From assembly GCA_947476045.1 (NCBI GenBank), contig CANJNZ010000014.1, positions 1 to 64,000 on the forward strand: 64,000 bases of DNA, in the 5' to 3' direction. A program made the translations under genes and the position numbers. The notes under the pieces were generated by a model. That model was not told where the DNA came from and did not search any database. It worked only from the letters and a program-made list of their open reading frames with translations. Source of the DNA: Chthoniobacteraceae bacterium (GTDB lineage: Bacteria > Verrucomicrobiota > Verrucomicrobiia > Chthoniobacterales > Chthoniobacteraceae). Below, piece by piece: positions 4,944 through 21,367 of the stretch; the first letter of the stretch is position 1; each line of letters begins with the position of its first letter.

Positions 4944-6992
4944 ATGTCCGACGAACGCAAATCTCTCGAACAACGCAACGCGATGACCGACATCGAACGG
5001 CTCCGCCACAGCGCGGCGCACGTGCTCGCCACGGCCATCCTGCGCATCTGGCCGGATGCACAATTCGCAGCGGGGCCGCCGGTGGAGAACGGCTTTTACT
5101 ACGACCTCGATATGGCGCACCGCATCACGCCGGAGGATTTCCCGCGCATCGAAGAGGAGATGAAAAAGGAGATCAAAGCGAACAACGTCTTCGAGCGCAC
5201 GGCCGTGACGCGCGCGGAGGCAATCGCGATGGCGGAAAGCGGACGGCTCGGCGGCTTGAGCGAACGGCCGGGGAATGTGAGCAAATTTAAAATCGGCAAT
5301 CTCGCGGACATCCCCGAGGGCGAGGAAATCTCGCTCTTCCGCAACGGCGATTTCCTCGATCTGTGCGCAGGGCCACACGTGATGCGCACGGGCAACATCG
5401 GCGCGTTCCGCCTCACGCACGTCGCGAGCGCCTACTGGAAGGGCGATGAAAAAAACCCGCAGCTCCAGCGCATCTACGGCACGGCATTCAAAAACAAGAC
5501 GCAGCTCGAAGAGTATTTCACGATGCTCGAAGAGGCGAAAAAGCGCGACCACCGCAAGCTCGGCAAGGAGATGGAGCTATTCACGTTCGACGACGACGTA
5601 GGCCCCGGCCTCCCGCTGTGGCTGCCAAACGGCACGGTGCTCATTGAGGAATTGGAAAAGCTGGCGAAAGAAACGGAGTTCGCCGCCGGATACGATCGCG
5701 TGCGCACGCCGCACCTCGCGCGGGAGAACATGTATCTCACGAGCGGACATCTGCCGTATTACGAGGAAAGCATGTTCCCGCCGATGGAACTCGACGAGGA
5801 ACGCGGGCAGCGTGAGCCCATCGTGAAAATGCGAGCCGAAGCGTTGAGCGTGCTCGCGCTCTATATCCGCGACCAACTCGAAGAGACGCGCAATATTTCA
5901 CCCGAAGACCCCGAGATGCTCGCTCGAATCAAAGCCGGGATTGATGCCGACACAGCGTCCGCCGAGGTGAAGGAGGCTTTTCAGAATCTGCAAAAAGCGG
6001 ACTCACAGCTCAGCTTCACCGCCGCGCCGAAGAAGTATTACCTCAAAGCGATGAACTGCCCCCATCATCACAAAATTTTCGGCGCAGTGCCGCGCAGCTA
6101 TCGCGATTTGCCGCTGCGTCTCGCCGAATACGGCACCTGCTACCGCTACGAGCAATCGGGCGAATTGATGGGCCTCATGCGCGTGCGCTCGATGCAGATG
6201 AACGATGCCCACATTTACTGCACCGAGGCGCAGTTCGAGGACGAATTCCGCGCGGTGAACGAGATGTATTTGAAATACTTCCGCATCTTCGGCTTTGAAA
6301 AATACCAGATGCGCTTCTCCACACACGACCCGGCCAAGCTCGGGCAGAAGTTTGTGGACGAGCCCGCGCTTTGGAAAAAAACCGAGGACATGGTGCGCAG
6401 CGTCCTCATCAAATCCGGCATCAACTACGTCGAAGTGGCGAACGAAGCTGCGTTCTACGGGCCGAAGATTGACGTGCAGGTGTGGAGCGCCATCGGCAAG
6501 GAATTCACCATCGCCACGAATCAGGTGGACTTCGCCGTGCCCGCGCGTTTCGGGCTCAACTACCGCGCCAGCGACAACACGCAGCAGACGCCGCTCTGCA
6601 TTCACCGCGCGCCGCTCGGCACGCACGAGCGTTTCATCGGCTTCCTCATCGAGCACTACGCCGGCAATTTCCCGCTCTGGCTCGCGCCGGAGCAGGTGCG
6701 CGTGATCACCATCGGCGTCGAGGAACCGCTCGTCGCCTACGCACGCGGCATCGTCGAAGAACTCCGCGCACAGGGCGTCCGCGCCGTGGGCGATTACGGC
6801 ACCGACCCGATGAAGGCGAAAATCGCCGACGCCGAGCAGCGCAAAGTCCACACGATGCTCGTCATCGGCGGACGCGACCTCGAAGCCGGCAACGTCAGCC
6901 TCCGCCTCCACGGCAAGGGCAACATCGGCGCAAAGCCCCGCAACGAAGCCATCGCAGACATCCTCACAGCGATCAAAGAACGCCGGGCGTAA
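4944..6992 (+). CDS. thrS: threonyl-tRNA synthetase lacking the TGS domain and carrying an insert
   Basis: A 682-aa class II aminoacyl-tRNA synthetase that charges tRNA-Thr in the cytoplasm. The start is the ATG at 4944. The protein begins directly in the second additional (editing) domain: RHSAAHVLATA at residues ~21-31 supplies the HxxxH metal motif, and DLCAGPHV near 139 gives the further editing Cys/His. The catalytic core starts around residue 220. MNCPHH at 370-375 holds the zinc-binding Cys, and the anticodon-binding domain follows after ~585. Two things differ from E. coli ThrS (642 aa, from memory): the N-terminal TGS domain is absent, and about 75-80 extra residues lie between the MFPPME element (~277) and MNCPHH. 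The rest is intact, so it should be functional. Confidence 0.96.
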   Translation: MSDERKSLEQRNAMTDIERLRHSAAHVLATAILRIWPDAQFAAGPPVENGFYYDLDMAHRITPEDFPRIEEEMKKEIKANNVFERTAVTRAEAIAMAESGRLGGLSERPGNVSKFKIGNLADIPEGEEISLFRNGDFLDLCAGPHVMRTGNIGAFRLTHVASAYWKGDEKNPQLQRIYGTAFKNKTQLEEYFTMLEEAKKRDHRKLGKEMELFTFDDDVGPGLPLWLPNGTVLIEELEKLAKETEFAAGYDRVRTPHLARENMYLTSGHLPYYEESMFPPMELDEERGQREPIVKMRAEALSVLALYIRDQLEETRNISPEDPEMLARIKAGIDADTASAEVKEAFQNLQKADSQLSFTAAPKKYYLKAMNCPHHHKIFGAVPRSYRDLPLRLAEYGTCYRYEQSGELMGLMRVRSMQMNDAHIYCTEAQFEDEFRAVNEMYLKYFRIFGFEKYQMRFSTHDPAKLGQKFVDEPALWKKTEDMVRSVLIKSGINYVEVANEAAFYGPKIDVQVWSAIGKEFTIATNQVDFAVPARFGLNYRASDNTQQTPLCIHRAPLGTHERFIGFLIEHYAGNFPLWLAPEQVRVITIGVEEPLVAYARGIVEELRAQGVRAVGDYGTDPMKAKIADAEQRKVHTMLVIGGRDLEAGNVSLRLHGKGNIGAKPRNEAIADILTAIKERRA

Positions 6993-13013: not shown

Positions 13014-16000
13014 ATGTCACAACCATCCTTTCTTCGCCCGCTCGCATTTCTCACCCGTTTCACCCGCCGCGCACTGAGTTCCATTTTTGGCTCCGCACAC
13101 ATCGCGTGGTCGCCGCCGCCGTGGCTCCATGTGCTCGCACGCAACTGGCGGCGCACCGCCCTCGTCCTCGTGCTCATCGCCACCACCGCCTACGGCAGCG
13201 TGCGCTCGTGGAAATCGCATACCGCCCACAAACGCACCGTGACCGCGGCAAAAACCATCTGCGCACCTTCGGAAAAAACCGCCCCGCAACTCACGGTTCA
13301 AGCCGCTCCCGTAAAGGCTGTCCCTACCGCAACTCCGACGCAGCCTTCTGATCCCGATGTGCGCGACACAACCAAGCGGGCAAAGCGAACGCTCGAAGCA
13401 TGGGTGCAGTGGGCGCAGCCCAGCTGGAACGAGCAGACGCAAAAAGTATCCGGCTTCCCGCTCGCCATTCATTTCAGCGGAGCAGCGGCGCCCGTGGGTC
13501 TCGTCGGCAAACCCGCGCTCGCAGGCACCGTGACAGTCTCACCGGAAGTCCCCGGCGTTTGGAAATGGACTTCATCCGAAACACTCACCTTCGAGCCACA
13601 AGGCGGCTGGATGCCTCCGCGCGCCTACGATTTCAAACTCGGCGCAGACACCTTTGCGCCCGACTGCACCATTTCGTGGCGCAACCGCGACTGGAATGAT
13701 TGGCGCACACCTCGACTCACCGCTTCCTTTGGAGAAAAAAGTTTCTACGTCGATCCCACGACACCCGCGCTCCAGCAAACAGTCGCGACCGTCACATTCA
13801 GCCAGCCCGTTTCACGCGAGGAAATCGTCCACCATCTCGCCGTTGTGAACATGAGCGAGACGCCGCTCTTCGCGCCCGGCGGAAAGCCACAGGTGATCGC
13901 CGACGAGAAAAACCCGCTGCGCTTTTTCCTCCGCTCCCCGCTCATCAAGCCCGGCGAAAAAGAAGACCTCATCCGCTTTCAAATCGCGCCCGGCCTCCGC
14001 GCGATGTCCGGCGGCGATCCTACGAGCGAAGAGATCGTCACGAAAATCACATCGCCCTCGCGCTACTCCGCATTCTTTTTCAAGGAAGCACGCGCGCAAC
14101 TCGTGACCGACAAGGAGGGCGAGTCACGCCAGTTCATCTTCCTCGAAAGCAGCACCGCCGCGAGCGGCACGACCAACGCAAAGGCCGCGCTCGCGTGGCA
14201 ACTCCCGCCGCCGATGAAAAACAAAGAAGGTGAGGAAGAGCCATGGACGCCCGACAATGTGACGCCCGACGTGCTCGCGAAATCCAAGCGCGTGCAGCTT
14301 GAATTTGTCCCCGGCGAAAACGCGCCGCCGACCGCGAGCGTGTTCGGCTTCCGCCTCGCGCCGCAATCGCCAGCACGGTTGTGCGTTCGCATTCCAAAAG
14401 AAACCCCGGCGCCCGGCGGCTTCGTCACGCGGGAGGATTTCACCGCCATTGTGGATGTGCCGATGTTTCCGCGCGAGGCACGCGTGCTCGGCCACGGCGG
14501 CATCCTCGCGCTCAACGGCGAGCGCAAACTGAGCATCAAATCGCGCGGCTACGAAAATCTGCGCTTCACGCTCGCTCGCGTGCCCGCCGGGCAAATCAAC
14601 CACCTCGTCAGCCAGACCGAGGGACGTTTTGAAGCGCCCGAGTTTCAGGGAGCGTTCGACTGGTCGGACATCGCGCACTTTCACCACTCCGTGCAACCCA
14701 TCGCGAAAAAGAACGAGCACGAGGCAAACTATTCCGCGTTCGATTTCGGCCCCGCGCTCGCACAGGCCGATCCTGCGAACGAAGACGCACAGCGCGGACT
14801 TTTCTATCTCAGCGTCGAAGGCGTCCGCCGACGGACATCAGACGACGCAAAGCCGACCGACAAAGACCCGGACTCCGAGTGGATCGCGATGGCCAACACC
14901 AAAACTCACGAACGCCAAAACAACAGCCATCGCCGTTACCACGGAGAGGAAGACGAGGAAGAAACCGTGAATCGCGGAGACAGCAGCGAATCGCGCTTCG
15001 TGCTCATCACCGATCTCGGCCTCATCGTGAAACGCAACGCCGACGGCACACGCGATGTGTTCGTGCAGTCGTTCAAAGAGCGCGCGCCCATCGCTGGCGT
15101 GAAACTCACGGCGCTTGCCAAGAACGGCGACACGCTCGGCGAGGCAGAGACCGACGCACTGGGTCGCGCCGCTCTGCCTGCGCTCGATGGATTGAAACGC
15201 GAAAAGAAACCCGTCGCCATCGTCGCGCGCAAAGGCAGCGACCTCGCTTTCATCCCGTGGGCGCGTGAAGATCGCCAGGTCGAGTTGTCGCGCTTCGACG
15301 TGGGCGGCGTCCCGGCGAGCCAAACCAACGCGCTCGACGCATTCCTCTTTACCGAGCGCGGCATCTACCGCCCCGGTGATCCCATTCAACTCGCCGCCAT
15401 CGTGCGCCAGCGCGACTGGGCGGGCACGCTCGGCGGACTGCCCGTCGAGGTCGTCGTGACCAACGCGAAGGAGGAAGAGGCCGGACGCTACCCCGCGAAG
15501 CTGCCGCCCGACGGCTTCCTCACGATCACTTTGCCGACCACCGAAACTTCGCCGACCGGCGTGTGGCGGATCGAGTTACGCCGCCCCGAGGACGGGAAAA
15601 AGAAAAAGCGCACCGAGGAGGACGACGAGGATGCGACAGACACACACCACCTCGGCCACACGCTTGTGCGCGTCGAGGAATTCCAGCCCGACCGCCTCAA
15701 GCTCACGGCGAAACTCGAACCCTCTGCGGATGCCGCATGGCTTTCGCCGGAAAATCTGAACGCCAACGCCGAAGTGCAAACGCTCTTCGGCATCGCCGCC
15801 GCCGATCGCCGCATGACGGCAAAACTGCGCATCGCACCCGGCTCGCCATGTTTTGAGCAATGGCCAGGTTGGACTTTCGGCCTTCCAAAACACGAACGCT
15901 TCGATCCTCGCGAAGTCGAACTCGGCGAAACAAAGACCGACGAAAATGGTCGTGCAAAATTCTCGCTCCCGCTCGAAGCCTACTCCGCGCCGTTGCTGCG

Positions 16001-19000
16001 GGTGTCGGTGGACTTGGAGGCATTCGAGGCGGACGGCGGACGTGGTGTTCGCGGAGCACTCGGCACGCTCGTCTCGCGCCAGGCATTTCTCATCGGCTAC
16101 AAATCGGACGGCGATCTCGATTTCGTTCCGCGCGATGTTGTGCGCACTTTCCAAATCACCGCTATCGGCCCCGACGCGAAACCCGTCGCAGCGCCCGGCC
16201 TCAAGCGCGTTCTCATCGAAACACGCCACGCCTCCGTGCTCACCAAGCAGGACAACGGCACGCTCGCCTACATCTCACGCGAGCAGGACAAGGAAATCGA
16301 AACCGTTGACGGCTCACTCCCCGCGAGCGTGGTGAAAATTCCGCTGCCCGTGAAAAACGCGGGCCGCTTCCGCTATGAATGGCGCGATGCATCGGGCGTG
16401 GTTTTGTCCACCATCGCTTTCAATGTCGTCGGCCCCGGCGACCAGACGCGCAGCCTCGAGCGCGACACCGAACTCGAACTCACGCTGCCCGACAAAGTGT
16501 GGAAGCCGGGCGAGCAACTCGAAGTTTCGCTACGCGCTCCGTATGCGGGCGCGGGGCTCATCACCATCGAGCGCGAAAAGGTGCTGGCTGTGCAGTGGTT
16601 CAAATCCGACACCGCATCGAGCGTGCAGCACATCACCGTGCCCGAGGGCATTGAGGGCGGCGCGTATGTGAACGTCGCCTTCGTTCGCGCGCTGGATTCG
16701 GCGGAAATTTTCACCAGCCCGCTCAGCACCGGCGTTGCTCCATTCAAGGTCGCTCACGATCGCCGCCAGCTCGCAGTCACACTCGACGTGCCGGAGCGCG
16801 TGCGACCCGGCGAGCGTGTGTCCATCGGTTTCTCCACGCCGCGTCCGGCCCGCGTGATCATATGGGCCGTGGACGAAGGCATCCATCGCGTCACCAGCTA
16901 CAAGGCGCCACAGCCGCTCGTATCGCTCATCCGCAAGCCTTCGCTCGAAGTCGGCACATGGCAGCTTCTCGATCTGCTGCTGCCGGAGTTTTCACTGCTG
17001 AAAAATGCGAAGGCATTTGGCGGCGACGGCGACGAGCCGCCGGAACTGAAGCTCGGCCTCAATCCATTCAAGCGCCGCCGCGCTGCGCCGGTGGTTTTCT
17101 GGAGCGGCATCGTCGAGAGCGGCCCGGAGCGCCGCGAGGTCTTTTACGAAGTGCCCGATTATTTCGCCGGGCGTCTCAACATCATGGCAGCGGCAGTAGC
17201 GCCAGATGCGATCGGCGTCGCGGAAAAACAGACCATCGTGAAAGGCCCGTTCGTGCTCACTCCGAACGCGCCGTTTTTCGCCACGCCGGGCGATGAGTTC
17301 ACCGCTTCGCTCACCGTCGCCAACCAGCTCGAAGGCGCGGCTATGACGGACCAAATCACCATCGCAGCGGAGACAATCGGCGGACTCGAAATCATAGAGA
17401 AGCCGCAGACGCCGATCACCGTCGCCGTCGGCAAGGAAGTCACAGTGCGCTTCCGCGTCCGCGCAAAGTACGCGCTCGGAAACGCGGAGCTTAAATTTTC
17501 CGCAACCTCAGGAAACGAGCGCGTCGAGCAGCGCGCCACGATGAGCGTGCGCCCTGCGTCGCCACGTGTGGCTTTGGTGCAGAGCGGGTGGTTCCGCAAG
17601 GACTCGCACGATGTCCCGATGCAGCACGATTTCTACGCCGAGTTTGCGAAACGCGAGGCGGTCGTCTCCACGACACCGCTCGGCCTAGCTCGCGGGCTGG
17701 CGTCGTATTTGCGCGAGTATCCGCATGGATGCAGCGAGCAAATCACCAGTCGCGCATTCCCGTGGCTCGTGCTGCGAGACGATGCGGACTTCGGCCTCGA
17801 AAAAGCGGAGGCGGAAAAAACCATCCGCGACACGATCGCCATGCTGCGCACGCGGCAGCAAAAGAACGGCGGTTTCGGCTATTGGAGCTACGCCGGGGAC
17901 GACGAGGGCTTCGACTACGTGAGCGTGTATGTGACGTTCTTCCTCACGGAGGCGAAGGCGAGCGGCTTTGCAGTTCCCGCTCCCATGCTCGATGCCGCGT
18001 TGCGCCGGTTGCGGTTGATGGCGGATGCGAAACTGCCGGAGCCGGAGGGGCATGATTGGTGGCGCTACAGCTACACGCGCTCTTGCGCGAATACACAGGC
18101 CGCCGCGATTTACCTGCTCACTCGCAACGAAGAGGTGACGACGAACTACGCGCTCAAAATGCGCGATTCCCTCGACGCGAAGGTGCCGAAGGAATTGTGG
18201 CAGCGCGATCCGTCTGCTGCATGGCTGGCCGCGACGTGGCGACTGCTGAAAAAGGACGACGAGGCAAAGAAACTGATCGCCCTCCATCGCAGCGCGCGCG
18301 CAGCCGAGCAGAGCCTGCACGAGAATCGCTGGTGGTGGGACTACTACTACGAGACGCGGCTCACGCGTGAAGCGATGACGTTCACCGTGCTCTGCCGGCA
18401 CTTCCCGGAAATCGCGGGCAATTTCGGCTACGATGAACTGCGCCCGATCACGGAGTCTCTGGAGCGCGGTGATTTTCATACGCTCTCCGCCGCGTGGACG
18501 GTAATGGCGCTGAAATCCTACGCCGGACTTGCGAAGGCGAGCGGTGTGCAGGCGGGCATTTCCGAGGTCACAGGCGCGGACGCGAAGATACTCGCCGGGC
18601 CGCGCGCGGGAATGACAACAGCGAAGCTGGCGAGCGGCGGCGGTGTCGCGCGCTTCTTCCTCACACGTCCGGATAATTCGCCGAGGATCGGCGCATGGTA
18701 TCAGGCTGTTGAGACGGGTTTTGATCGTGCACTCCCGGCGAAGGCCGAGGCGCGCGATATCGAGGTCTTTCGCCAGATCCTCGACGAGCATGGCAACGCG
18801 GCGGAGATGGCAAAGGTCGGCGAGACGCTGCGAATCCGCGTTCGTGTCCGCAACATCAGCAAGACCGCGCAGCCACACCTCGCGGTGACGGAACTTCTGC
18901 CCGGCGCGTTCGATTTCGCGCCCGCCGGCGAAGACCGCGCACTGCGTCCCGGCCTCGGCACTCTGCCCGGCACGGAATACGTGGACGTTCGCGAAGACCG

Positions 19001-19175
19001 CGCGCTGCTCTTCTGCGATCTCGCGGAAAATGAGACGAAGACGTTCGAGTATTCCATCCGTCCGACGTGCGCCGGGTCATTCACCGTGCCGCCTGCCTAC
19101 GCGGAAAGTATGTATGACCGCGCCGTGCGCAGCCGTGGCTTCGCGGCGAAATTCACCGTGCTTCCACGCGAATGA
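13014..19175 (+). CDS. bacterial alpha-2-macroglobulin family protein (YfhM-like)
   Basis: A 2053-aa envelope protein of the bacterial alpha-2-macroglobulin family, thought to trap proteases in the periplasm and protect cells with damaged walls. An N-terminal membrane anchor lies at ~48-63 (TALVLVLIATTAYGSV), where E. coli YfhM has a lipobox. A series of macroglobulin domains follows, with SRFDVGG and FTERGIYRPGD (~770-790) marking the usual MG core. YPHGCSEQITS places the thioester Cys at 1573 and Gln three residues later. TRQQKNGGFGYW (~1620) is in the alpha-helical thioester domain, and a receptor-binding-like domain ends the protein. Two highly charged inserts (~615-660 and ~860-880) are unusual. 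The gene overlaps pbpC by ATGA, so translation is coupled. Confidence 0.93.
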   Translation: MSQPSFLRPLAFLTRFTRRALSSIFGSAHIAWSPPPWLHVLARNWRRTALVLVLIATTAYGSVRSWKSHTAHKRTVTAAKTICAPSEKTAPQLTVQAAPVKAVPTATPTQPSDPDVRDTTKRAKRTLEAWVQWAQPSWNEQTQKVSGFPLAIHFSGAAAPVGLVGKPALAGTVTVSPEVPGVWKWTSSETLTFEPQGGWMPPRAYDFKLGADTFAPDCTISWRNRDWNDWRTPRLTASFGEKSFYVDPTTPALQQTVATVTFSQPVSREEIVHHLAVVNMSETPLFAPGGKPQVIADEKNPLRFFLRSPLIKPGEKEDLIRFQIAPGLRAMSGGDPTSEEIVTKITSPSRYSAFFFKEARAQLVTDKEGESRQFIFLESSTAASGTTNAKAALAWQLPPPMKNKEGEEEPWTPDNVTPDVLAKSKRVQLEFVPGENAPPTASVFGFRLAPQSPARLCVRIPKETPAPGGFVTREDFTAIVDVPMFPREARVLGHGGILALNGERKLSIKSRGYENLRFTLARVPAGQINHLVSQTEGRFEAPEFQGAFDWSDIAHFHHSVQPIAKKNEHEANYSAFDFGPALAQADPANEDAQRGLFYLSVEGVRRRTSDDAKPTDKDPDSEWIAMANTKTHERQNNSHRRYHGEEDEEETVNRGDSSESRFVLITDLGLIVKRNADGTRDVFVQSFKERAPIAGVKLTALAKNGDTLGEAETDALGRAALPALDGLKREKKPVAIVARKGSDLAFIPWAREDRQVELSRFDVGGVPASQTNALDAFLFTERGIYRPGDPIQLAAIVRQRDWAGTLGGLPVEVVVTNAKEEEAGRYPAKLPPDGFLTITLPTTETSPTGVWRIELRRPEDGKKKKRTEEDDEDATDTHHLGHTLVRVEEFQPDRLKLTAKLEPSADAAWLSPENLNANAEVQTLFGIAAADRRMTAKLRIAPGSPCFEQWPGWTFGLPKHERFDPREVELGETKTDENGRAKFSLPLEAYSAPLLRVSVDLEAFEADGGRGVRGALGTLVSRQAFLIGYKSDGDLDFVPRDVVRTFQITAIGPDAKPVAAPGLKRVLIETRHASVLTKQDNGTLAYISREQDKEIETVDGSLPASVVKIPLPVKNAGRFRYEWRDASGVVLSTIAFNVVGPGDQTRSLERDTELELTLPDKVWKPGEQLEVSLRAPYAGAGLITIEREKVLAVQWFKSDTASSVQHITVPEGIEGGAYVNVAFVRALDSAEIFTSPLSTGVAPFKVAHDRRQLAVTLDVPERVRPGERVSIGFSTPRPARVIIWAVDEGIHRVTSYKAPQPLVSLIRKPSLEVGTWQLLDLLLPEFSLLKNAKAFGGDGDEPPELKLGLNPFKRRRAAPVVFWSGIVESGPERREVFYEVPDYFAGRLNIMAAAVAPDAIGVAEKQTIVKGPFVLTPNAPFFATPGDEFTASLTVANQLEGAAMTDQITIAAETIGGLEIIEKPQTPITVAVGKEVTVRFRVRAKYALGNAELKFSATSGNERVEQRATMSVRPASPRVALVQSGWFRKDSHDVPMQHDFYAEFAKREAVVSTTPLGLARGLASYLREYPHGCSEQITSRAFPWLVLRDDADFGLEKAEAEKTIRDTIAMLRTRQQKNGGFGYWSYAGDDEGFDYVSVYVTFFLTEAKASGFAVPAPMLDAALRRLRLMADAKLPEPEGHDWWRYSYTRSCANTQAAAIYLLTRNEEVTTNYALKMRDSLDAKVPKELWQRDPSAAWLAATWRLLKKDDEAKKLIALHRSARAAEQSLHENRWWWDYYYETRLTREAMTFTVLCRHFPEIAGNFGYDELRPITESLERGDFHTLSAAWTVMALKSYAGLAKASGVQAGISEVTGADAKILAGPRAGMTTAKLASGGGVARFFLTRPDNSPRIGAWYQAVETGFDRALPAKAEARDIEVFRQILDEHGNAAEMAKVGETLRIRVRVRNISKTAQPHLAVTELLPGAFDFAPAGEDRALRPGLGTLPGTEYVDVREDRALLFCDLAENETKTFEYSIRPTCAGSFTVPPAYAESMYDRAVRSRGFAAKFTVLPRE

Positions 19176-21367
19176 AGAAACTCCGCCGCTGGCTGAAACG
19201 CATCGCGGGCTGCCTCGCACTGCTCACCGCCGTGCTGTGGATCGTGTGGCTGCTGCTGCCGAAACCGGAGTTGCTGCCGCCGGGTGCGGAGTTTTCACAC
19301 GTGATGCTCGACCGCGATGGGCGTGTGCTTTTCATCACGCTCACCAGCGATGGAAAATACCGGCTGCCCGCGAAGCTCGATGAGCTTTCTCCTGAGTTGC
19401 TCACAGCAACTTTGGAAATGGAGGACCGGCGTTTCTTTTCGCACCACGGTGCGGATCCGCGCTCGCTTGCGCGCGCGACGTGGGGCGTGGTTTCGGGCAA
19501 ACGCCTCGGCGGTGGATCCACGCTGACGATGCAGTTTGCGCGGCTGCGCTGGGGGCTGGAGACGCGCTCGATGTGGGGAAAGCTCACGCAGCTTTTCCGC
19601 GCAGTGCAAATCGAGCGGCACTACGGCAAACAGGAAATTGCGGAGGCATATTTTACGTTCGCGCCCTACGGCGGGAATGTGGAGGGCGCTACCGCTGCGA
19701 GTCTGCTGTGGTGCGGCAAGGCCGCGAAGGAACTCTCGCTGCGCGAGGCGGCGGCGCTGAGCGTGCTGCCGCAGAGCCCGACGAAGCGTCGCCCACGCGT
19801 AGGTGAAAATCCCTCGCTCGCGGCGGCGCAGGGGCGGCTGATGGCGCGGTTGCGCGCGGCGCGCGGTGAGGAGTCCAGCGCGCTGGATGCGGAATTTTCT
19901 CTGCACCCGGCGCAGGTTCCGCGATTCGCCCCGCACTATGCGCGGCGGGTGATTGCGCAGGGCGATGTTTTGCAAACCGCTCATCGCACAACGCTCGATC
20001 TCCGCCAGCAACAGACGGTCGAGCGCAGCATCACGGACTTCATTTCGCGCTGGCACGCCGAGGGGCTTCGCAACGCGGCGGCGATTCTCGTTCACGCGCC
20101 AACGCGCGAGGTGCGCGCCTACGTGGGGTCGGCGGGTTTTTTGAATGACGCAATCCAGGGACAGGTGGATGGAGTGATTGCACGTCGCTCGCCGGGATCG
20201 GCGCTGAAGCCGTTCATCTATGGGCTGGCGTTTGATGCGGGGCTGATTCAGCCGCGCACGCTGCTCGACGATGCGCCAAGACGTTTCGCGGGCTACAATC
20301 CGGAAAATTCCGACCATGGTTTCCTCGGCCCCATCCCGGCTGCCGAGGCGTTGCGCAGGAGCAGGAATGTTCCGGCGGTGGAATTGCTCGCGCGCCTGCC
20401 GGGCGGGGGACTGGATAGCTTTTTGCGCGACGCAGGCGTGCAACTCGCGAAGCCACGCGGTGAATACGGACTGTCACTCGCGCTCGGCGGTGCGGAGGTT
20501 TCGCTGGAGGAAGTGGCGATGCTTTATGCGGGGCTGGCGGATGGGCAAGCGGGGACGCCTGCCCGACCACGACAGGCGGGACGCCTGTCCTACTCTGCTT
20601 GCTGGCTCACACTGGATGCGTTGCGCGGGAACGAGGGGCCGTCGGGGCTGGCTTGGAAGACGGGGACTTCGCACGGCTTCCGCGATGCGTGGGCGTGCGG
20701 GGTGATGGGCGATTGGGTGCTTTGCGTGTGGGTGGGAAATTTCGACGGCAAACCGATGCCGGGGCTTTTCGCGCGCGATACTGCGGCACCTCTGCTTTTT
20801 CAAACCGTCACACGACTCGGACTGCGTGCAAAACCAACTCCGCGCCCGTCGGAAATTGTGGATGTGAAGCTGTGCGTAATCACCGGCGAACTTGCCGGGC
20901 CGCACTGCGCGCATTGCACGACAGGTAAATTTATCGCGGGCGTGTCGCCCATCGCGACTTGCACCGTGCATCGCGAAGTCACTCTCGCGAATGGCAGCCA
21001 CGCCGTGCGTGAATTTTGGCCCGCGCACCGGCTGGAGCAATTTCGCCGTGCAGGGCTTCCGCGCTACGCCGCGCGAGACGACACGGGCGTGGCATCAGGC
21101 CCTGCCCCGCGCATCGTTTCGCCGCAACACGCAATCACCTACGTGCTGCGTCCGGGTGCAGGTGCGAAAAATTCCATCGCGCTCGAAGCTGAGACGGCAC
21201 CCGGTGTGAAACGTCTGCACTGGTTCGCCGGTTCGCGCTACCTCGGTTCAGGCACACCACAGCAACCGCTCATGTGGCAGCCGGAAGTTGGTCATTGGAC
21301 GATTCAGGCGCTGGATGACGCAGGACGTTCTGCGTCCATTTCGCTCACTGTGGCGGCGCTGCCGTGA
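19172..21367 (+). CDS. pbpC: penicillin-binding protein 1C (bifunctional glycosyltransferase/transpeptidase)
   Basis: A 731-aa inner-membrane enzyme of peptidoglycan synthesis. It has one membrane helix at ~13-28, then a GT51 glycosyltransferase domain with catalytic Glu in MEDRRFF (E84) and GGSTLTMQ. The transpeptidase domain has S343-A-L-K346, S397-R-N and K496-TGTS, all intact. The C-terminal ~150 residues match the BiPBP_C region typical of PBP1C, with paired cysteines around 575-590. The start overlaps the A2M stop (ATGA), the same order as yfhM-pbpC in E. coli, and the pair is thought to act in wall repair and defence. A palindromic repeat is embedded in frame at about residues 460-474, between SRN and KTG. 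Confidence 0.95.
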   Translation: MKKLRRWLKRIAGCLALLTAVLWIVWLLLPKPELLPPGAEFSHVMLDRDGRVLFITLTSDGKYRLPAKLDELSPELLTATLEMEDRRFFSHHGADPRSLARATWGVVSGKRLGGGSTLTMQFARLRWGLETRSMWGKLTQLFRAVQIERHYGKQEIAEAYFTFAPYGGNVEGATAASLLWCGKAAKELSLREAAALSVLPQSPTKRRPRVGENPSLAAAQGRLMARLRAARGEESSALDAEFSLHPAQVPRFAPHYARRVIAQGDVLQTAHRTTLDLRQQQTVERSITDFISRWHAEGLRNAAAILVHAPTREVRAYVGSAGFLNDAIQGQVDGVIARRSPGSALKPFIYGLAFDAGLIQPRTLLDDAPRRFAGYNPENSDHGFLGPIPAAEALRRSRNVPAVELLARLPGGGLDSFLRDAGVQLAKPRGEYGLSLALGGAEVSLEEVAMLYAGLADGQAGTPARPRQAGRLSYSACWLTLDALRGNEGPSGLAWKTGTSHGFRDAWACGVMGDWVLCVWVGNFDGKPMPGLFARDTAAPLLFQTVTRLGLRAKPTPRPSEIVDVKLCVITGELAGPHCAHCTTGKFIAGVSPIATCTVHREVTLANGSHAVREFWPAHRLEQFRRAGLPRYAARDDTGVASGPAPRIVSPQHAITYVLRPGAGAKNSIALEAETAPGVKRLHWFAGSRYLGSGTPQQPLMWQPEVGHWTIQALDDAGRSASISLTVAALP
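20551..20595. repeat. palindromic GC-rich element embedded in pbpC
   Basis: GGGACGCCTG occurs twice, at 20552-20561 and 20578-20587. GACAGGC (20571-20577) and GCCTGTC (20583-20589) form a perfect 7-bp inverted repeat with a 5-base loop. The element translates in frame to Pro/Arg/Gly-rich residues (ARPRQAGRLSYS) that do not look like PBP sequence. It resembles small dispersed palindromic elements; a second copy was not noticed in this window. Confidence 0.5.

Follow-up and report, generated by a model that had tools for sequence, protein, structure and literature searches.

A probable intragenic GTAG-type REP dimer in pbpC of a Chthoniobacteraceae bacterium, and in-frame REP and RAYT sequences in related genomes

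The pbpC locus and the layout of the element

The window analyzed here is a 64,000-nucleotide (nt) stretch of DNA from a Chthoniobacteraceae bacterium (assembly GCA_947476045.1, contig CANJNZ010000014.1, positions 1 to 64,000), in which the gene pbpC carries a short palindromic element within its coding sequence. This element is very probably an intragenic repetitive extragenic palindrome (REP) of the GTAG type, a solo head-to-tail dimer that landed in a length-tolerant loop of the encoded protein. The genome to which the window belongs (G000) amounts to 4.37 Mb and is fragmented into 123 contigs; genomes, contigs and individual stretches are designated below by G, C and L numbers.

The pbpC product scored 636.6 bits against the TIGR02073 PBP_1c profile, above the curated cut-off of 494.2, and contains the catalytic motifs SRN (residues 397-399) and KTG (residues 496-498), which together identify it as penicillin-binding protein 1C (PbpC). 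Its nearest named matches come from Spartobacteria, Chthoniobacteraceae and other Verrucomicrobia assemblies. An earlier note on this DNA had placed a 45-base palindromic element between these two motifs in a frame that stays open. The open reading frame (ORF) indeed runs uninterrupted through the element, which encodes residues 458-474 on the + strand as 17 codons, in codon register. The features of the locus are as follows.

19172 to 21367, + strand: pbpC, penicillin-binding protein 1C, 731 aa, host of the insert (TIGR02073 above cut-off; Transgly, Transpeptidase and BiPBP_C matches)
20540 to 20605, + strand: variable transpeptidase-domain loop holding the insert, residues 457-478 (cut from the alignment; alignment and AlphaFold2)
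20543 to 20593, - strand: whole element, approximately 51 nt, head-to-tail dimer of two GTRG-tagged candidate REP hairpins (single-stranded DNA fold; like architecture elsewhere)
20543 to 20564, - strand: hairpin H1, imperfect, GGGCAAGCG-GGGA-CGCCTGCCC, 4-nt loop, 8 pairs of 9 (single-stranded DNA fold)
20567 to 20570, - strand: GTGG tag of H1 (CCAC on the + strand), two bases off the H1 stem (sequence and fold)
20571 to 20589, - strand: hairpin H2, perfect 8-bp stem, loop GGA/TCC (repeat search and fold)
20590 to 20593, - strand: GTAG tag of H2 (CTAC on the + strand), adjoining H2; GTGG in G001

Folded as single-stranded DNA, positions 20541-20594 form two hairpins that correspond to H1 and H2, and this fold is more stable than those of shuffled sequences, with z-scores of -3.85 on the + strand and -5.16 on the - strand. 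The element described earlier is thus real, but its proposed bounds of 20551-20595 had cut off the left arm of H1. Likewise, the inverted repeat that had been reported as perfect over 7 bp is perfect over 8 bp, with arms GACAGGCG (20571-20578) and CGCCTGTC (20582-20589) enclosing the loop GGA, while the reported 10-base direct repeat, GGGACGCCTG, occurs twice as described, at 20552-20561 and 20578-20587, with a spacing of 26 nt.

Read on the minus strand, the order of the parts is GTAG-H2-GTGG-TC-H1, which, judged from its sequence, is the layout of GTAG-tagged REPs. A GTAG tag stands at H2 and a GTGG tag near H1, and both hairpins (8 bp with a 3-nt loop; 8 pairs of 9 with a 4-nt loop) fall within the stems of 5-13 bp and loops of 2-20 nt that characterize GTAG REPs. 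A REPIN comprises two inverted REPs as a unit. Over the 260 nt upstream of the window copy no inverted partner was found, and the window contains no other exact copy of the core; we read this copy as the solo end of a REPIN-like inverted pair.

Upstream of pbpC lies a 2053-aa ORF (13014-19175), the end of which shares 4 nt with the start of pbpC. We take this ORF to resemble alpha-2-macroglobulin, genes for which are presumably the usual neighbors of pbpC.

Exact copies are dispersed in related genomes

Within the window itself the motifs of the element show no excess. The motif CAGGCGGGACGCCTG, with up to 3 mismatches, matched 4 times against 3.43 expected; GGGACGCCTG, with up to 1 mismatch, matched twice against 5.36 expected; and the 2 hairpins with a stem of at least 8 bp and a loop of 3-5 nt lie within the range of 1-7 obtained for 12 Markov copies. 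Counts with mismatches in the own genome were also no higher than those for the reversed patterns (115+119 versus 119+115, and 39+52 versus 64+60), and were dropped as an argument. The earlier note had proposed counting copies of its repeats in the genome: the 19-mer has 1 exact copy there, a count that is misleading when taken alone, and the count of the 10-mer covered the window alone.

The evidence from this single window is insufficient, whereas across relatives the exact family is far above chance. The exact 15-mer core CAGGCNGGANGCCTG matched 172 times in 22 of 38 genomes (the own genome included), compared with 7 matches for the reversed controls. By genome, the counts were 71 versus 1 in G008, 23 versus 0 in G005 and 14 versus 0 in G003, while G009 (2 versus 2), G037 (1 versus 1) and G014 (0 versus 1) were not above control. 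The tagged 24-mer CGACAGGCNGGANGCCTGTCCYAC, with up to 1 mismatch, matched 27 times in 8 of 40 genomes and its controls not at all. Although this pattern left the loop-closing letters free, they pair in 26 of the 27 matches (16 T-A, 8 A-T and 2 G-C), which indicates that the hairpin is kept, beyond the letters alone.

The dimeric arrangement also recurs. Sixty stretches around listed core copies (9 of them from G008) provided, together with the window, a sample of 75 exact cores; an upstream hairpin at 24-27 nt was present at 18 of the 75, compared with 9 of 1220 random positions. A tandem-dimer pattern with a spacer of 4-12 nt, outside which the window and G001 copies fall with their spacer of 13 nt, gave 48 exact matches spread over 10 of 54 genomes, with G008 alone contributing 30; the reversed controls gave none. 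The single match in the own genome is a copy on contig C21. Of the 71 core copies in G008, 56 belong to 28 inverted pairs (26 at 94 bp and 2 at 84 bp), and further inverted pairs are found in G047 (two) and G045 (one). By analogy, such pairs look like REPINs in which the end is often a dimer.

The element occupies a variable loop of PbpC

The same insert is present at the same pbpC site in G001 and is absent from that site in G006, as the alignment of close relatives suggested in the earlier note now reveals. Its residues were not found in PbpC from distant species: among 29 other pbpC loci and 18 other aligned rows, they occur in G001 alone. The net gain over the G006 allele is 27 nt, or 9 residues, and so falls short of the approximately 15 added residues first estimated, even though the element itself spans 17 codons. 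A clean 45-nt insertion was rejected on the basis of this difference. Comparison of the target site with G006 revealed no clear duplication of the kind that accompanies classical MITEs and insertion sequences, but the loop has diverged between the genomes.

In the AlphaFold2 model (19-row alignment, mean predicted local distance difference test score (pLDDT) of 83.7), the loop runs from the end of helix 445-457 into helix 474-484, ahead of the KTG strand. A short loop had been expected here. This holds for 10 of the 18 other aligned homologues, which have 12-14 residues, but 7 have 27-38 residues and G001 has 22, the same length as in the window PbpC. The alignment thus indicates that the loop is naturally variable and that the insert does not make it unusually long. 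The insert-bearing loop is predicted to be disordered, with pLDDT values below 50 at residues 463-469.

A second pbpC insertion was found in G047, which belongs to another genus of the same family. Here a dimer lies in frame at a different site, at approximately window residues 235-250. Its H1, GCAGGCG GGGA CGCCTGC, is nearly identical to the window H1, and it encodes QAGTPA, as the window element does. The recurrence of a near-identical H1 in this second pbpC hit is our best evidence that H1 belongs to the element. In substance, the earlier suggestion of a mobile palindrome tolerated in a surface loop is borne out by a dispersed REP-like family, by the presence of the insert in G001 and its absence in G006, by the preserved frame, and by the predicted disorder of the loop.

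In-frame copies in other coding genes

A filter based on frame openness and codon-position GC found ORFs spanning the element in 15 of the 60 stretches; the filter is incomplete, as it missed pbpC of G001. For 12 of the 15 listed ORFs, representing 11 gene families in 7 genomes, Pfam or NCBIfam matches cover the element or lie on either side of it (L127 is counted among these 12, the positions of its later matched stretches not being shown).

Own genome, C21: FtsX/ADOP permease, ADOP match below cut-off
G005 and G003, genomes of one genus (L104, L127): ispG
Single in-frame copies: PSD-domain protein; heavy-metal P-type ATPase; DpdE; sugar-acid dehydratase; S15 peptidase
Single in-frame copy, right-hand match weak: PVC heme protein
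Single in-frame copies: DnaE/PolIV fusion; class IV aminotransferase; S9 peptidase

For the other three ORFs, no match extended beyond the element in L146, and no Pfam match was obtained for L122 and L143.

RAYT cores inside housekeeping genes of relatives

A profile scan for Y1_Tnp, the domain of REP-associated tyrosine transposases (RAYTs, also TnpAREP), returned matches in 33 of 38 genomes, including two in the own genome. Around the first 25 RAYT loci, GYRG-tagged hairpins of at least 7 bp were found in 6, none with the core of the pbpC element; GGA- or GAA-loop hairpins, mostly of other families, were present in 8 of 20 further RAYT stretches.

Several Y1_Tnp matches lie in long open frames, and 21 matches in 20 stretches were read in their frames. 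Seventeen cases among relatives place a RAYT core within a host gene or, for the RecF-like gene, ahead of it.

ClpB: G008, G014 and G002, with a partial case in G005 (L205, L207, L208, L211)
RecG: G008, G025, G020 and G037 (L206, L212, L214, L216)
AlaRS: G002 and G005 (L213, L217)
ThrRS: G008 (L215)
ValRS: G028 (L209)
CarB: G032 (L203, G032:C14:14000-21500)
Methylase-type protein: G024 and G003
RecF-like gene, RAYT core read through into it: G008 (L204) and G003 (L218 4154-5896); RecF-type domain by Pfam in L204 only

Nine of the 17 cases were searched with Pfam: in 8 the RAYT lies between host domains (in RecF these are on one side), and in 8 Y1_Tnp is above cut-off, the Y1 match in AlaRS of G002 coming from the genome-wide Y1_Tnp scan. 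Outside this nine-frame set, ClpB of G002 and G005 and AlaRS of G005 were identified by gene-specific comparisons, whereas the names given to RecG of G025 and G020, to both methylase-type proteins and to RecF of G003 come from inspection of the sequence, with no profile. Among 57 genomes there are three complete ClpB hybrids and one partial one. The one thrS locus above cut-off in G008 is a RAYT hybrid, and the one alaS locus of G002 is RAYT-interrupted. The G005 assembly, which is 7% contaminated, contains two ClpB fragments (C129, C368), one bearing a RAYT and the other continuous across that site with no RAYT, and these two forms reflect either two genes or contamination. The assemblies are drafts, yet the cases come from many genomes, which makes assembly error less likely.

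When up to 1 mismatch was allowed, 3 of the 17 RAYTs (those in CarB of G032, ValRS of G028 and the methylase-type protein of G003) had a REP-like core no more than 60 aa away on each side, and another 3 had one on a single side, one of these lacking the closing pair. As a crude test of RAYT homing between genomes, we compared identities of the RAYT and of its host gene. The two track each other roughly for RecG (50-70% versus 46-70%) and ClpB (56-74% versus 61-86%), and do not for AlaRS, where the RAYTs are 54% identical and the host parts 78% and 74%. We also calculated a RAYT tree, with row ends set by rule, the ClpB row of G005 cut longer, and 8 of 16 inner branches drawn open. In this tree the four ClpB copies cluster as a single clade, neither the RecG rows nor the two AlaRS rows group together, and the ThrRS copy of G008 is sister to the methylase-type copy of G003. 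The ClpB RAYTs may thus have been inherited with their host gene, and the sisterhood of the latter pair suggests that RAYTs also moved between genes.

Three further observations concern these genes. AlaRS frames of 1091-1287 aa with gaps in their profile matches occur at G002:C1, G004:C68 and G008:C149, of which only that of G002 was read. The window's own thrS (4944-6992) has an ordinary-looking loop of approximately 70 residues where the ThrRS of G008 holds its RAYT. In carB of G032, REP-like cores flank the RAYT, and farther on comes another REP pair, also in frame.

Discussion

We propose that a REP dimer, equivalent to one end of a REPIN-like pair, inserted in a length-tolerant loop of PbpC. 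GTAG REPs are believed to owe their movement to HUH transposases of the RAYT/TnpAREP type, which act on single-stranded DNA (PMC3733652, PMC6006769). From membership in the REP family we infer that a RAYT HUH transposase would likewise mobilize the pbpC element in trans via single-stranded DNA. The element would then persist because it brings no stop codon into this frame, adds a net length divisible by three and sits in a loop that accommodates it, and the encoded peptide, GQAGTPARPRQAGRLSY, would have no selected function.

Several observations weigh against this proposal. Exact cores are few in the own genome, with 3 copies (reversed control 0), whereas a relative can hold as many as 71. 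Tags vary across the wider core family: at the tag position, the 75 sampled cores have GTAG in 14, GTGG in 15, GGAA in 16 (including most of those from G008) and other letters in 30, so that just 29 bear a GTRG tag. The own RAYT at C85 (L190 969-1893, a 243-aa ORF) has inverted GGA-loop hairpins on both sides whose sequence is unlike the pbpC element, and this RAYT and its hairpins likely constitute another REP/RAYT family. In 11 of the 17 RAYT hybrids no REP-like core lies within 60 aa of the RAYT. Neither pbpC insertion is clean, as an element of approximately 51 nt yields a net gain of 27 nt, and the G047 segment is only about 3 residues longer than that of the window.

The distribution of the insert adds to these difficulties. 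The insert-free G006 looks nearer to the window genome than the insert-bearing G001 in most of the stretches compared: in the C-terminal part of pbpC (112/1225 differences for G006, 146/1224 for G001) and over the 9.4 kb downstream of pbpC (90% identity for G006, 87% and 85% for G001). Beyond those 9.4 kb both are 79% identical, and at the protein level it is G001 that is closer in the N-terminal PbpC piece (95%, against 92% for G006), the other piece being 92% identical in both. Over its 54 sites the insert shows a single difference between G000 and G001, which has a P of approximately 0.009 under the flank rate (~12%), and it lies inside an 86-nt run of identity, the longest of the compared stretch. 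One gain followed by simple vertical descent was judged insufficient, as G006 looks closer in most, though not all, stretches. Given the nearness of G006 and the unusual identity of the insert in G000 and G001, loss in G006 or exchange between the G000 and G001 lineages is at least as likely as a single simple gain, and one of these may be needed to explain the distribution.

The same identity would be expected if the REP were kept for a function, for example by adjusting pbpC expression as an mRNA hairpin or a DNA site, or by supplying a beneficial peptide. However, recent exchange accounts for it equally well, the insert is absent from G006 and from all other pbpC loci read save that of G001, and its loop is disordered in the predicted structure; we therefore consider a selected role unlikely. 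A local event at a native hairpin, either a tandem duplication of approximately 26-27 nt or template switching, would fit the closeness of the 27-nt net gain to the 26-nt spacing of the direct repeat, as well as the native loops, which often read GRLSPxACW, near the GRLSYSACW of the element. Yet a duplication of 26 nt would shift the pbpC frame, no single-hairpin intermediate was seen at the site among the pbpC loci read, and other genomes and genes show the same spacer, tags and type of H1, all of which makes a local origin improbable. A reading without any insertion, in which the repeats and hairpins arose by chance from the normal codon usage of a GC-rich loop, agrees with the chance-level motif counts in the window and, with mismatches, in the own genome, but it is very hard to reconcile with exact tagged hairpins and tandem dimers that recur across genomes with 0 control matches, with an insert present in G001 and absent in G006, and with a near-identical H1 elsewhere in the pbpC of G047.

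A verrucomicrobial precedent for REPs within genes comes from O. terrae, which we take to be Opitutus terrae. Intragenic GTAG REPs, including those of O. terrae, are already published; Di Nocera et al. (2013, PMC3733652) describe in-frame intragenic REPs in this member of the Verrucomicrobia, dimers and RAYTs in the same genomes, and 24 families. The pbpC element shares with those GTAG REPs an unpaired GTAG or GTGG tag at one end, a stem within 6-9 bp and a 3-nt loop. Unlike in that account, head-to-tail dimers with a 24-27 nt period are common here, and the likeness drawn is one of architecture. As in the REPINs of Bertels and Rainey (2011, PMC3116915), relatives hold inverted REP pairs, mostly ~76-136 bp apart where measured, whereas the window copy is without an inverted partner in the 260 nt upstream. 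Rickettsia palindromic elements also lie as palindromes in frame within coding genes, but a review of MITEs (PMC10969869) gives them as ~150 bp long with a conserved peptide. Frame-preserving REP insertions are further reported in PMC6006769 for TnpAREP subclass 2.4; there they lie within tnpAREP genes themselves, in contrast to a pbpC host and to relatives that also show RAYTs in frame in host genes.

The pbpC case is a clear example of in-frame REP insertion: close relatives differ in whether they carry it, and a second insertion has struck pbpC in a different genus. It is useful for studying the entry of REPs into coding regions. What could be new is the RAYT-in-gene pattern. An open-access search covering titles and the starts of abstracts found no recognized report of in-frame RAYTs in housekeeping genes; the 2018 TnpAREP survey (PMC6006769) states that it set aside some proteins, described as 'unexpectedly long', which it took for fusions or annotation errors. 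Tentatively, and with the balance of our judgment still slightly against it, the REP/RAYT system of this verrucomicrobial order may be coding-resident, with REP dimers and REPIN-like pairs in frame in many genes and complete RAYTs as translated internal domains of housekeeping proteins (ClpB, RecG, ThrRS, AlaRS, ValRS and CarB). On this reading, and as the HUH motif is kept in the frames read, the hybrids would probably be functional both as host enzyme and as transposase. They could then be likened to non-splicing inteins, with the pbpC insert as the smallest form of the same habit. If true, RAYTs translated within essential proteins would represent a new route to expression and retention for a mobile gene; the two hybrid cases checked are apparently single-copy. 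Such natural hybrids would allow direct tests of RAYT activity and of the tolerance of the host enzyme.

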